A stretch of 64,000 nucleotides of DNA from Glycomyces tenuis DSM 44171 (GTDB lineage: Bacteria; Actinomycetota; Actinomycetes; Mycobacteriales; Micromonosporaceae), in the NCBI RefSeq assembly GCF_000427885.1, contig NZ_ATYW01000011.1, positions 65,001 to 129,000 on the forward strand, given 5' to 3'. The notes under the pieces are model-generated. The model was given only the letters and a program-made list of their open reading frames with translations. It was not told the DNA's origin and searched no databases. Numbering within the stretch: position 1 is the stretch's first letter; each line of letters opens with the position of its first letter. Of the stretch, positions 23,251-28,459 are shown one piece after another. Position numbers and translations under genes: made by a program.

Positions 23251-23673
23251 TCAGCCGGAGCGGTCGGGGCCGAACCATTCGAGCGGCTGTCCGGTGACGG
23301 CCGCGATGCATTCGAAGTCGCGGTCTCTGTGGAGCAGCGACAGATCATGCAGTTCCGCCGTGGCCGCCACAAGGAGGTCGACCGGACCGGCGCTGCGGTG
23401 CTGTCCCCTGCGGGTGAGCGCCTGTTGCACCTCAACGGCTCGCCGGAACATGCGATCGTCCATCGGGACCCATCCGAACAAGCCTATGAAGACTTCTTCG
23501 AGACGCTGCCGGTCGGCCCACGAGCGGGCACCGTACAAGTACTCGAGCTCGACTACGGAGCAGAGCGCGATCAGACCCGCTTCCGCCGCCCGGTCCCAGC
23601 CGTGCTCTTCCGAACTCTTCAACAGCAACCTCGAAAGCGCGCTGGTGTCGATGAGGTACCGAGCTGGACTCAT
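23251..23673 (-). CDS. vapC: VapC-type PIN-domain toxin
   Basis: The 140-residue protein has the PIN ribonuclease fold with its acidic residues in place: Asp9 in YLIDTSALS, Glu42/Glu44 in VELEYLYGAR, Asp99 in AGPVDLLVAATA and Asp117/Asp119 in HRDRDFECIA. VapC toxins cleave tRNA or rRNA. Its ATG overlaps the vapB stop codon as ATGA, the standard coupled arrangement. The gene appears intact. Confidence 0.88.
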   Translation of the reverse strand: MSPARYLIDTSALSRLLLKSSEEHGWDRAAEAGLIALCSVVELEYLYGARSWADRQRLEEVFIGLFGWVPMDDRMFRRAVEVQQALTRRGQHRSAGPVDLLVAATAELHDLSLLHRDRDFECIAAVTGQPLEWFGPDRSG

Positions 23674-23885
23674 CGACGATAATTCCTCTTGTCCTCGAAG
23701 ATCGACGTGTCGATCGCACCATCGGCGACCATGGCACGGAGCCTGGTCAGCGCCATCGCGCGCCGCCTGGTCTCCAGGACCTCCTTCAGCGCCGAGTTGA
23801 CGGTGTCCTTCTTGGTCGAGGTGCCGAGGGCCTTGCTCACTTCAGCGAGCAGGTCGTCGTCGAGATCGATCACAGTACGGCTCAT
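23670..23885 (-). CDS. vapB: VapB-type ribbon-helix-helix antitoxin
   Basis: The 71-residue protein begins MSRTVIDLDDDLLAEVSKALGTSTKKDTVN, the typical RHH DNA-binding part, and ends with a toxin-binding tail (GAIDTSIFEDKRNYRR). AAAGGAGGT precedes the ATG by 7 nt, which rules out the upstream in-frame ATG at 23981. It should repress its own operon together with VapC. A TATACT box lies about 60 nt upstream of the start. Confidence 0.88.
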   Translation of the reverse strand: MSRTVIDLDDDLLAEVSKALGTSTKKDTVNSALKEVLETRRRAMALTRLRAMVADGAIDTSIFEDKRNYRR

Positions 23886-24109
23886 GACCGCACCTCCTTT
23901 GATATCACTCATGCCACCGAAGCTATCGGCAAGTATATCCAGATTCGGGCGGGACACACCGACGCGAAGAGCTTTTCTCAATGCCCCTGATCGGCGGACG
24001 GTCCGGGACGTCCGCCGGGGACCGAGCCGCCCGAATACACGTTTCGTTCTCCTCGGGCTGGAAAACCCAGGGGTCCGGGCCGAGCGGCTCCGGGGTGGGG
24101 GGACGTGCC

Positions 24110-25368: not shown

Positions 25369-26610
25369 TCAGGCGGTCGAGAGCCCGGCGTGCCAGGCGG
25401 TCGCCGAGGCGTCGGTCAGGGACGCCACCTGGTCGATCACGACGCGCAGGCGCTCGGCGTCGTCGCCGGCCGAGCGCCAGGCGGCGGCGAACATCGGCTC
25501 CATCGCCTCGGGGCCGCGCTCGCCGAGCAGGGCGACGAGCTCGGTGAGGATCTCCCGCTGGCGCGCGTAGTAGGGCTCGGCCGTCCTCGGCCGCATCACA
25601 TAGCGCCAGGCGATGCCCTTGAGGAGGGCGCACTGGATCCGCTCGCGTTCGGGGACGACAAGCCTCGCGTCGTAGCGGCGCAGCGGCGCCTCGCCGTAGC
25701 GTTCGCGGGTCGCCGCCACCGCGGCGTTCACGAAGCGGCCCACCATGGTCGAGGTGAAGGACTTCAGGGCCACCATCGCCGCGAAGGAGCCGTCGTAGTC
25801 GTGGAGGCCCCGCATCACCGGATCGCGCAGCAGCTCCCCCAGCGCCTCGGCGAGGGTCGCCTCGGACTCCTCGGCGTAGCGTCCGGCCGCGTCGGCGCAC
25901 ACCCCGGCCTGCTCGTCCGCGTCGTCCATCAGCGTCGCCAGGTCGATATAGCCGCCGTGGAGGCCGTCCTCGAGGTCGTGGACCGAGTAGGCGACGTCGT
26001 CCGACCAGTCCATCACCTGCGCTTCGAGGCACTGCTCCCCCGCCGGCGCCCCGGCGCGGAACCAGTCGAAGACCGGGCGGTCGTCCGCGTAGACGCCGAA
26101 CTTGCGCGTCCCGGGCCGGGCCTCCCACGGGTACTTGCAGGCCGCGTCCAGGGAGGCGCGCGTCAGGTTGAGGCCCACCGAGGCGCCGCCGGCGTCGAGG
26201 ACCTTCGCCTCCAGGCGGGTCAGGACCCGCAGCGTCTGGGCGTTGCCCTCGAAGCCGCCGCACGGGCCCGAGACCGCGTGCAGCGCGTCCTCGCCGTTGT
26301 GGCCGAACGGCGGGTGCCCCAGGTCGTGCGCCAGACCCGCGACGTCCACCACGTCCGGGTCGCAGCCGAGCTTGTCGCCGGTCTCGCGGGCGATCTGGGC
26401 GACCTCGAGGGAGTGCGTCAGGCGCGTGCGGAGGAAGTCGTCCGTGCCCGCGGTGTGCACCTGCGTCTTGGACGCCAGGCGGCGGAAGCCCGCCGAGTGC
26501 AGGACTCTCGCCCGGTCCCGCTGGAACGGCGAGCGCACCGACGCCGCCTCGCGCACACGGCGCTCCTCGGCGGGTCCGAGGCGGGACGCGCGAAGCACGG
26601 GATCGGTCAC
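25369..26610 (-). CDS. dgt: dNTP triphosphohydrolase (Dgt family)
   Basis: The 413-residue protein is an HD-domain dGTPase-like triphosphohydrolase that removes the triphosphate from deoxynucleotides. FQRDRARVLHSAGFRRLASKTQV near residue 30, the metal ligands RLTHSLEV and AGLAHDLGHPPFGHNGE, and QVMDWSDDVAYSVHDLEDG are intact. It is in the shorter, deoxyguanosinetriphosphate-triphosphohydrolase-like group. The GTG start is fixed by TAGGCT 7 nt upstream. The first seven codons form one arm of a perfect inverted repeat. Confidence 0.9.
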   Translation of the reverse strand: MTDPVLRASRLGPAEERRVREAASVRSPFQRDRARVLHSAGFRRLASKTQVHTAGTDDFLRTRLTHSLEVAQIARETGDKLGCDPDVVDVAGLAHDLGHPPFGHNGEDALHAVSGPCGGFEGNAQTLRVLTRLEAKVLDAGGASVGLNLTRASLDAACKYPWEARPGTRKFGVYADDRPVFDWFRAGAPAGEQCLEAQVMDWSDDVAYSVHDLEDGLHGGYIDLATLMDDADEQAGVCADAAGRYAEESEATLAEALGELLRDPVMRGLHDYDGSFAAMVALKSFTSTMVGRFVNAAVAATRERYGEAPLRRYDARLVVPERERIQCALLKGIAWRYVMRPRTAEPYYARQREILTELVALLGERGPEAMEPMFAAAWRSAGDDAERLRVVIDQVASLTDASATAWHAGLSTA

Positions 26611-26645
26611 GCCGTCGAGCCTAGCGTGACCGATCCCGTGCTTCG
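26591..26645. terminator. 22-bp perfect inverted repeat spanning the dgt start
   Basis: Arms 26591-26612 and 26624-26645 are perfectly complementary over 22 bp with an 11-nt centre. For transcripts leaving the DUF3352 gene, whose stop is 5 nt away, this is a strong terminator hairpin. The centre holds the dgt -10 box TAGGCT (26618-26623), and the downstream arm is the first seven codons of dgt. Confidence 0.75.
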
Positions 26646-26650
26646 AGGCG

Positions 26651-28459
26651 TTACTTCAGGTAGAGGCGGGCCAGGCCGGTGCCGTCGCCGTCGACCGAGC
26701 CCTGGGCCCAGGCGAAGGCCGACAGCGGCTCGGCGCCGCTGAACTCCTCGTACGAGGAGACGTCGGCCAGGTCGACCCACACGCCGAAGGCGGCGCTGTC
26801 GGGCGCGGCGTCGGCGAAGGCGCTGAAGCGCTCGTCGTCGGCGAGGGTGCCGTCGGCGACGCCGCCGCCCTCGTAGGACAGTGACGAGCCGTCGACCTCG
26901 ACGCCCTCGGGGAGGGCCTCGCCGCCGCTCATCTCCTCGATCATCGTGTTGAGCTCCTCGGCGCGGTCCTCGGACAGGACCACGGAGGCGAACAGCGTCT
27001 CGGGGTCGAACTCCCCGCCTTCGGCGGGGAAGTCGGCCGCGATGGACAGCTGGGCGCCGGAGAGCAGGTCGATGAACTCCTCAGCCTCGCCGAGGGCGTC
27101 CTCGTAGTCCGAGCCGGTGTCGTAGTCGGTCTCGACGGGGTCGTCCTCGGTGCCGTAGGTCCAGTAGCGCTGCTCGAGTTCGTAGTAGCGCTCCTCGTCC
27201 TCGGGGGCGAGGGTGTCGTCCCACCACTGCTGGTCGAGTTCCTGGTATTCGGCGTACTCCTCGTCGGTGAGCGGGCCGCTGTCGGTGGTCTCGGAGCCGC
27301 CGTCGGTCTCGCCGGAGAGCCCTTCGAGCTCGCTCGTCCACTCCTCGGTGATCTCGGCGAGGTTCTCGGGGACGTCGGCGGTCACGGCGATGTCCGAGGC
27401 GGGCATCTCGCCCATGTCGGCGAGCAGCTCCTCCGAGCCGGTCCACGGGTTGTCCTCCTCGCCGAAGTGGCGGTAGGACAGCTCGAAGCCCTCGTCGAAG
27501 GCCGAGAAGCCGGCGATGAAGTGGCCCGAGAACGTCGAGCCGAGCGCGGTGACCGTGCCCTCGTCGCCCATCATCCCGACCGTCTCGGTGAAGGCCTCGA
27601 CGTCGAACCAGTAGACGGCGAGCTGGTCGCCGTCGAGCCAGGAGCGGGCCTCCTCGTAGGAGTCCGAGCCCGACAGCGGCGAGGAGCCGGCCTCGGACTC
27701 GGCGGCCTCGAGCGCCGCGGCGGCGCCCGAGTCGCCGGCGACCATCAGGACGGAGTCGTCGCCGACGGTGTAGGCCCACTGGTCCTCGCTGACGCCGGAG
27801 GACTCGCGGATCTTCTCCAGGCCGGCCTCGGCGGCCTCGGCGTCGGTGCTGGCGAGGTTGACCACGGCGTACGGCTGCTCGTCGTGGGACCACATGGCCA
27901 TGCCGTGGCGGCGGCCGAGCCAGGAGGCGATGTCCTCGTCGGCGTCGACGTCCTCCATGCCGGCCTCTTCGAGCACGTCGGCGAGGATGTCGTTGGTGTC
28001 GTCGTAGTCGAGCCCCTCGAACTTGTTCAGGTGGTCGATGAGCTTCGGCGTCTGGTCGAACGACGGGTCGAGGTTGACCTCGAGGTACATGGACGCCGAG
28101 GACGGGAACCGCTCGGCCGGGTCGGGGCCGGAGGTCCAGAAGAAGTTGAAGAACACGAACGCCCCGATGGCGGCCACGAGCGCGACCGACAGCACTGAGG
28201 CGAGGATGACGGGCCCGCGGCGGCGGCGCGGCGCCGGGCCGGGCGGCATCGGGGCGTAGCCGCCCGGCGGCTGGAACGGCGGCTGCCCGCCGTAGGCGCC
28301 CGGCGCGCCCGGCGGGGGCGGGGGCTGCTCGGCGTAACCGGGCGGCGGAGGCTGCATCTGCGGCTGCGGCTGGTACTGCGGTGAGGGCTGCCCTCCCGCC
28401 GCGGCGGGCCCGGGACCGGGCTCGACGTTGTACTGCTGCGGGTTGTTGAAGCTCGACAT
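26651..28459 (-). CDS. DUF3352-family membrane-anchored protein
   Basis: The 602-residue protein has a proline/glutamine/glycine-rich cytoplasmic N-terminus of about 80 residues, one membrane helix at about 83-107, and a long acidic extracytoplasmic domain. PAERFPSSASMYLEVNLDPSFDQTPKLIDHLNKF just after the helix and LNTMIEEMSGGEALPEGVEV later match the actinobacterial DUF3352 family, of unknown function. A very acidic insertion lies near residues 390-455. A TAGCGT box 6 nt before the ATG suggests a leaderless message. Confidence 0.8.
   Translation of the reverse strand: MSSFNNPQQYNVEPGPGPAAAGGQPSPQYQPQPQMQPPPPGYAEQPPPPPGAPGAYGGQPPFQPPGGYAPMPPGPAPRRRRGPVILASVLSVALVAAIGAFVFFNFFWTSGPDPAERFPSSASMYLEVNLDPSFDQTPKLIDHLNKFEGLDYDDTNDILADVLEEAGMEDVDADEDIASWLGRRHGMAMWSHDEQPYAVVNLASTDAEAAEAGLEKIRESSGVSEDQWAYTVGDDSVLMVAGDSGAAAALEAAESEAGSSPLSGSDSYEEARSWLDGDQLAVYWFDVEAFTETVGMMGDEGTVTALGSTFSGHFIAGFSAFDEGFELSYRHFGEEDNPWTGSEELLADMGEMPASDIAVTADVPENLAEITEEWTSELEGLSGETDGGSETTDSGPLTDEEYAEYQELDQQWWDDTLAPEDEERYYELEQRYWTYGTEDDPVETDYDTGSDYEDALGEAEEFIDLLSGAQLSIAADFPAEGGEFDPETLFASVVLSEDRAEELNTMIEEMSGGEALPEGVEVDGSSLSYEGGGVADGTLADDERFSAFADAAPDSAAFGVWVDLADVSSYEEFSGAEPLSAFAWAQGSVDGDGTGLARLYLK

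Follow-up and report, generated by a model that had tools for sequence, protein, structure and literature searches.

Actinobacteria have many leaderless genes, which may follow closely on other genes; the insulation of such genes from upstream transcription has, to our knowledge, been little studied. Protection against outside transcription by RNA structure is known for mobile elements, the transposases of IS10 and IS50 having inverted repeats that hide their translation starts. In IS200, the RNA stem of the inverted repeat covers the translation start region, as described in PMC12594629. The T4 genes e, soc, 49 and I-TevI are further examples: according to PMC3014915, the start is sequestered in a helix when the RNA is a long one arriving from upstream, and for gene e, late promoters located just upstream yield RNA devoid of the 5' strand. 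As regards transcript 3' ends, 441 of the 2115 mapped in S. griseus are structured without a U-motif, and "I-shaped" terminators are discussed for GC-rich actinobacteria (PMC8914203). In mycobacteria, an RTG at the 5' end of the RNA suffices for leaderless translation, leadered initiation needs a Shine-Dalgarno sequence, and re-initiation at gene junctions is discussed (Shell et al. 2015, PMC4633059). Leaderless RNAs also exist in P. acnes (PMC3848588).

The locus described here lies on the minus strand of the window, the whole stretch of 64,000 nucleotides of Glycomyces DNA that was analysed, and comprises dgt, the gene that precedes it and the hairpin at their junction (Table 1). A dGTPase lowers dNTP pools, so that tight control of dgt is plausible. 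A sequence-only reading of this DNA had named both genes: the assignment of dgt is firm, but that of the upstream gene as DUF3352 is a weak lead, its match to Pfam PF11832 (E 0.064, 12.3 bits) falling below the cut-off of 26.8. The product of the upstream gene has a proline-rich N terminus followed by a hydrophobic segment. TAGCGT stands 12 nt before its ATG (window 28459, minus strand) and the previous gene is 58 nt away; it looks leaderless and thus probably has its own promoter. To note, two short adjoining genes beyond dgt (window 23251-23981, minus strand) resemble a VapBC-type pair when their translations are read by eye, with a PIN-like ORF (23251-23673) preceded by a small partner gene.

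Table 1. Features of the dgt locus, with positions in the window.
Feature	Position	Strand	Remark
5' arm of the hairpin	26624..26645	-	inner part GGGATCGGTCACGC conserved in the genus
Loop, 11 nt, TAGGCTCGACG, holding the -10-like box	26613..26623	-	
TAGGCT, leaderless-type -10 of dgt	26618..26623	-	first base 13 nt before GTG
3' arm: GC, dgt GTG, five further codons (2-6) plus two bases of the seventh	26591..26612	-	
dgt start codon GTG	26608..26610	-	same GTG aligned in 22/22 genomes
dgt, deoxyguanosinetriphosphate triphosphohydrolase	25369..26610	-	NF002829, 568 bits, cut-off 385; Pfam HD and HD_assoc
Upstream gene, weakly DUF3352-like	26651..28459	-	ORF; stop TAA 26653-26651

The inverted-repeat comparison confirmed the perfect repeat of the earlier reading: the two 22-nt arms are 100% complementary and the 5' arm begins 5 nt behind the upstream TAA. 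The candidate -10 box of dgt does lie in the 11-nt centre, at an offset typical for the leaderless promoters of this genome. The far arm had been described as the start codon plus six codons; it contains the GTG and five complete codons, but it begins 2 nt before the GTG and takes in two bases of the seventh codon. An in-frame GTG at dgt codon 5 is also located inside the stem. The minus-strand RNA 26580-26660 folds with a predicted energy of -53.5 kcal/mol (z -7.5), a value equalled by none of 200 shuffles.

As in T4 gene e, the start codon is predicted to lie within a helix of the long RNA; if the conserved -10-like box in the loop is the promoter of dgt, RNA begun there would be devoid of the 5' strand. 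Gene e, however, combines a phage late promoter with a Shine-Dalgarno site, whereas dgt is chromosomal and has a leaderless-type start, a -10 box in the loop and a hairpin that probably plays a 3'-end role for the preceding gene. Unlike the repeats of transposases, the dgt arms lie between two ordinary genes of conserved order, and no mobile element was noticed nearby. The hairpin shares with U-poor or "I-shaped" terminators a stable GC-rich stem right behind a stop codon, but its 3' arm is the coding sequence of the next gene and its loop harbors a likely promoter. Finally, dgt resembles leaderless actinobacterial genes in having a -10 box 12-14 nt before GTG/ATG and differs from them by its stem, none of the other 207 sampled starts carrying a comparable one. 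The principle is known from T4 gene e, I-TevI and the transposases; an arrangement that unites it with leaderless initiation, a loop containing the promoter and the 3'-end hairpin of a preceding gene was not found in the titles and abstract starts among the matches listed by a full-text literature search, which is weak evidence of absence, most subscription journals lying outside that search.

Boxes of the leaderless type are strongly concentrated ahead of candidate starts in this genome. TANNNT located 12-14 nt before the start yields 171 matches (100, 50 and 21 per offset) at 1617 candidate starts, against a background of 1-6 matches per offset at 6-11 and 16-23. The dgt box, at offset 13, belongs to this peak, and the pairwise identity of its hexamer reaches 0.92 across 22 genomes. 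The consensus sigma-70 promoter scan gave no match at the locus, the genus alignment upstream of dgt displays no conserved -35 box, and no Shine-Dalgarno-like stretch precedes the GTG in the read-through RNA. We infer that the dgt transcript starts at this GTG; an alternative start codon was rejected based on its alignment in all the genomes compared (Table 1). Since the gene caller is crude (for dgt, it chose a start located 54 nt inside the gene), in-frame upstream starts were considered too. The sample thus drawn from this genome covers 1.664 Mb out of 5.735 Mb (29%) and contains 208 leaderless-type candidate starts; a Watson-Crick stem longer than 9 bp covers that of dgt alone (22 bp, the next best being 9 bp). 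The same layout was sought in 400 kb of genome G031, where the best stem among 20 leaderless-type starts is 5 bp long.

All 22 genomes of the genus that were searched possess dgt, preceded in 22/22 by an upstream-gene homologue, and the identity of Dgt to the window protein goes down to 72%. The dgt region of G015, a member of the genus, is identical over the stretch compared to that of a contig named as G. arizonensis, which places the genus as Glycomyces. The loci L031-L042 were excluded from the counts, as each has an identical counterpart among L001-L022 over the compared stretch. The distance from the upstream stop to the GTG is 38-56 nt in 21 genomes and 344 nt in the remaining one, G004 (locus L018). 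In these 21 genomes, the start codon is covered by a stem that has 15-24 pairs and is uninterrupted in 12 of them, the others containing a single mismatch. Conservation of the upstream arm in relatives, which the earlier reading had put forward as a check, is therefore observed in 21/22 genomes, but it concerns a core of 14-15 bp (GGGATCGGTCRCGC / GCGTGACCGATCCC) and not the whole 22 bp, the outer pairs of the window's stem differing between species. Locus L018 does not have the arm and was for this reason left out of alignment A1, of the opening-cost, block-identity and tail means, and of the outer-pair permutation given below.

Across the 22 genomes, the 12 nt preceding the -10 box have a pairwise identity of 0.82, as compared to 0.43 at 23-12 nt before it and 0.36 further upstream. 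Within dgt, the first 13 nt reach 0.99 and the sequence beyond them 0.53, GTGACCG(A/G)TCCCG being invariant except for one base. Two control leaderless genes display identities of 0.64 (gene 30648, 17/22 usable rows, five being left out as no leaderless start was found) and 0.69 (gene 32506, matched in 21/22 genomes, 21/21 usable) for the same 12 nt. In the block 16-6 nt before the -10 box, the mean majority identity is 0.88 for dgt (21 genomes) and 0.63 (17) and 0.60 (21) for the controls. The 5' arm is better conserved than these two promoters and hence seems to be held by more than promoter function. Outside the genus, 76 dgt loci were collected, of which L023 and L087 gave no candidate start, L023 being read by hand. 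TANNNT precedes the candidate start by 12-14 nt in 23 of the 74 usable loci, and none of the 74 has a Watson-Crick stem longer than 7 bp over it, which makes the start-covering hairpin a Glycomyces feature.

Much of the core being invariant, the edge of the promoter and the N terminus of Dgt, each of them conserved, might be complementary by coincidence, without any RNA function. The codons involved lend this idea some substance. Codon 3 of dgt is GAT in 21/22 genomes (GGT in one), while GAT accounts for 28 of the 829 Asp codons (3.4%) in the rest of the gene. Early codons, however, use GAT more often: among Asp codons it represents 15/57 near leaderless-type starts and 48/276 near other called starts, as compared to 6% in gene bodies. 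Moreover, GAT CCC occupies dgt codons 3-4 in seven Catellatospora loci and in L024, with stems of 2-4 bp, and dgt starts with ATG-GTY-GAT-CCC behind a TANNNT box in L024, L043, L051, L055, L058, L060, L064 and L068. The GAT-CCC codons thus occur without the hairpin and are not specific to it, and little weight is given to codon 3. Against coincidence stand the conservation of the 5' arm relative to the controls, the unique position of dgt among the 208 starts, and the length of the repeat: one first-order Markov simulation of 464 kb produced no perfect repeat of at least 13 bp, so that 22 bp of perfect complementarity are beyond the simulated range. A chance origin of the repeat was discarded on this ground, and a purely fortuitous complementarity of the two conserved segments appears highly improbable.

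The earlier reading also proposed to look for co-variation of the arms, and this was analyzed by counting named pairs in 21 sequences, merged to 20 distinct rows. In the core register 95% of the cells pair, a proportion equalled by 3/500 shuffles, and the covariation score, 0.073, was reached by 0/500. Nevertheless, 9 of the 16 core pairs never vary and three vary on one side, and sliding the register by +3 gives a score of 0.072, yet with 31% of the cells pairing (23-44% in all slid registers). Changes on both sides are found in 2/16 core pairs (16/500 shuffles as high), whereas the cells with double changes (83/500) and the pair types (448/500) are unremarkable. Covariation support for the stem is thin. 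One example is provided by L003, in which a U-A pair has become C-G. The commonest variation is an A to G change opposite the U of GUG, giving G-U in 13/20 distinct rows; it keeps the pairing in the dgt-sense RNA and breaks the symmetry of the DNA. A C.A mismatch is present in the core of 5/20 rows. Outside the core, contiguous extra pairs number 61, as compared to 39.3 with swapped partners (0/20000 permutations as high), in a permutation that ignores relatedness although related species share states. A second, non-contiguous measure of outer pairing, 82 of 168 as against 76.9, fails to reach significance (p 0.076).

These variations bear on the possibility that the repeat acts as DNA, i.e. 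as an operator whose arms, around the -10 box, would bind a dimeric regulator repressing dgt. A perfect dyad centred on a promoter, with two highly conserved arms, is what such a site would look like. The G.T (13/20 rows) and C.A (5/20) combinations nevertheless break its symmetry, G.T keeping the RNA pairing, and its outer pairs are species-specific. Furthermore, the exact half-site pair GGATCGGT-N3..30-ACCGATCC is found at dgt in 14/22 genomes and at four scattered sites elsewhere, with unrelated spacers. The operator reading is accordingly unlikely, though a local regulator retains a small probability; a regulon operator was rejected since the pair barely occurs away from dgt (4 sites, 22 genomes). 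Single-arm searches allowing 2 mismatches returned 159 + 157 matches against 67 + 70 for the reversed control, the exact ones being at the dgt locus alone. The Rfam search identified no known element or riboswitch, its two microRNA models being far below the cut-off and on the plus strand. An antisense, plus-strand RNA element was rejected, as these models are sub-threshold and the G-U changes favor the dgt-sense strand.

The position of the hairpin is shared by many others in this genome. In 1.264 Mb, window included, there are 104 perfect repeats whose arms measure 13 bp or more and whose loops measure 3-20 nt, and the dgt hairpin is one of the six with stems of at least 22 bp. For 70 of the 104, the position falls between 5 nt before and 60 nt after the end of a predicted gene (convergent genes flanking 26 of the 70), while 9 are within genes and 25 elsewhere. 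Long stems behind stop codons thus look like the usual 3'-end signature here, and the dgt repeat is by position one of these hairpins, with a stem longer than most. Their tails contain on average 2.2 T per 8 nt (96 tails, convergent ones counted on both sides), an about twofold enrichment in T (sample 14% T), and U-runs are rare. In the case of dgt, the 8 nt following the conserved core contain 2.8 T on average (range 1-5, 21 genomes). The initial description of a terminator hairpin holds as far as the stable GC-rich stem behind the stop codon is concerned, but directly after the window's stem CGCGTCCC is found instead of the U-run of a canonical intrinsic terminator, and the terminator scan of the region gave no match. 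The fold is well below the -25 kcal/mol taken from PMC8914203 as the threshold for structured 3' ends, and the hairpin is a candidate member of the U-poor 3'-end hairpins of actinobacteria. Its U-poverty is usual for this genome, yet it provides no positive evidence for termination.

Two rearranged relatives illustrate what the hairpin may be when it is not fused to dgt. In G004, whose genes are 344 nt apart, the -10 box and GTGACCGATCCCG are retained, the arm before the -10 box is mutated and the long stem is gone. A 14-nt repeat (93%, 3-nt loop) is instead located 35 nt behind the upstream stop. The gap harbors a 28-nt direct repeat (89%, spacing 232 nt; L018:1202-1229 / 1434-1461), which suggests a local duplication; a local duplication or an insertion may have split the fused hairpin, judging from this sequence. 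The arm GGGACCGGCTGCGC of the separate hairpin (L018:1192-1222) resembles the genus arm GGGATCGGTCGCGC at 11/14 positions, which may be due to chance. G034 (L023) belongs to another genus with the same gene order, and its upstream protein is 42% identical. It possesses a 15-bp repeat, located 137 nt behind the upstream stop, with the likely ATG of dgt following 98 nt further on. In both genomes, a hairpin thus follows the upstream gene without touching the start of dgt, which suggests that the element is a merged 3'-end hairpin of the upstream gene, a reading based on two genomes, G004 being a single exception within its genus. On balance, we lean towards the view that the hairpin is the U-poor, terminator-like 3'-end hairpin of the upstream gene, which has merged in Glycomyces with the dgt start and its leaderless promoter.

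The merger has a predictable effect on the accessibility of the dgt start. In the 21 genomes, the energy predicted to be needed for opening the initial 12 nt of dgt averages 2.6 kcal/mol in RNA beginning at the GTG and 20.0 kcal/mol (14-34) in RNA beginning 60 nt upstream. The predicted probability of the start being unpaired is 0.60 in the former and 0.02 in the latter. This agrees with the proposal of the sequence-only reading that read-through RNA folds over the start whereas the gene's own RNA cannot, in terms of a start predicted to be almost fully paired or largely free. The corresponding predictions for L018 are 3.2 (own RNA) and 12.0 kcal/mol (120-nt read-through RNA), with unpaired probabilities of 0.52 and 0.29. 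Even in this exception, the start is thus predicted to be costly to open in read-through RNA, which counts against the reading favored here.

Start hiding alone, as in T4 gene e, might have been selected: no termination would take place, and the stem would block translation of dgt, or re-initiation, on a two-gene RNA. The predicted opening cost is in line with such a function, and so is the persistence of the start-codon overlap in 21/22 genomes although a separate hairpin is possible, as L018 and L023 demonstrate. Conversely, the L018 hairpin stands behind the upstream gene and not over dgt, and the long perfect repeats of the genome are mostly at or behind gene ends. Moreover, as no Shine-Dalgarno-like stretch precedes the GTG, read-through RNA may not be translated there, and hiding would in part be redundant, except if ribosomes resume initiation behind the upstream stop; termination or 3'-end formation is then at least as likely a function as start hiding. 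Start hiding as the sole selected function is in our opinion unlikely. Termination fits the position and the rearrangements and start hiding fits the persistence of the overlap, as far as sequence comparison can tell.

With the hairpin taken as the merged 3'-end hairpin of the upstream gene, the following scheme may be proposed. A polymerase arriving from upstream would transcribe both arms, and the stem formed by them would favor termination or serve as the mark of a protected 3' end of the upstream RNA; any RNA passing the stem would have the dgt start locked in a helix. A polymerase initiating from the -10 box of the loop would produce an RNA that begins at or next to the GTG and contains the 3' arm alone. 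As the 5' arm is absent from this RNA, the stem cannot form in it, and the RNA would stay open for leaderless translation. The net effect would be that of an insulator leaving dgt under its own promoter, and the hairpin probably keeps dgt from being activated by the neighbouring gene; a benefit to the cell may be supposed. A stronger version, which we hold tentatively and with some doubt, is that a single segment fulfils four roles (3'-end hairpin of the upstream gene, -10 box in the loop, leaderless start and first codons of dgt) and is held by selection so that dGTPase comes solely from RNA begun inside the hairpin. The dgt locus represents a compact case, accessible to experiment, of a barrier built in part from the start codon itself, and G004 and G034 are natural variants in which hairpin and start are apart.

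Several other sites of the genome deserve mention. The second-best leaderless-type start (G000:C13:55462) has a 9-bp Watson-Crick stem (16 with G-U) over an ATG located 135 nt behind the preceding gene; it may represent an operator, or else the dgt layout in a weaker form. Stems of 10-16 bp overlap six non-leaderless candidate starts whose start codons are uncertain. A 16-bp perfect repeat with a 17-nt loop (G000:C2:136384-136432) lies just before or over a predicted gene start, the start codon again being uncertain. Two further repeats (G000:C1:330874-330911 and 336645-336676) are centred on TGTTTCACGTGAAACA, which we take to resemble the parS chromosome-partition site.
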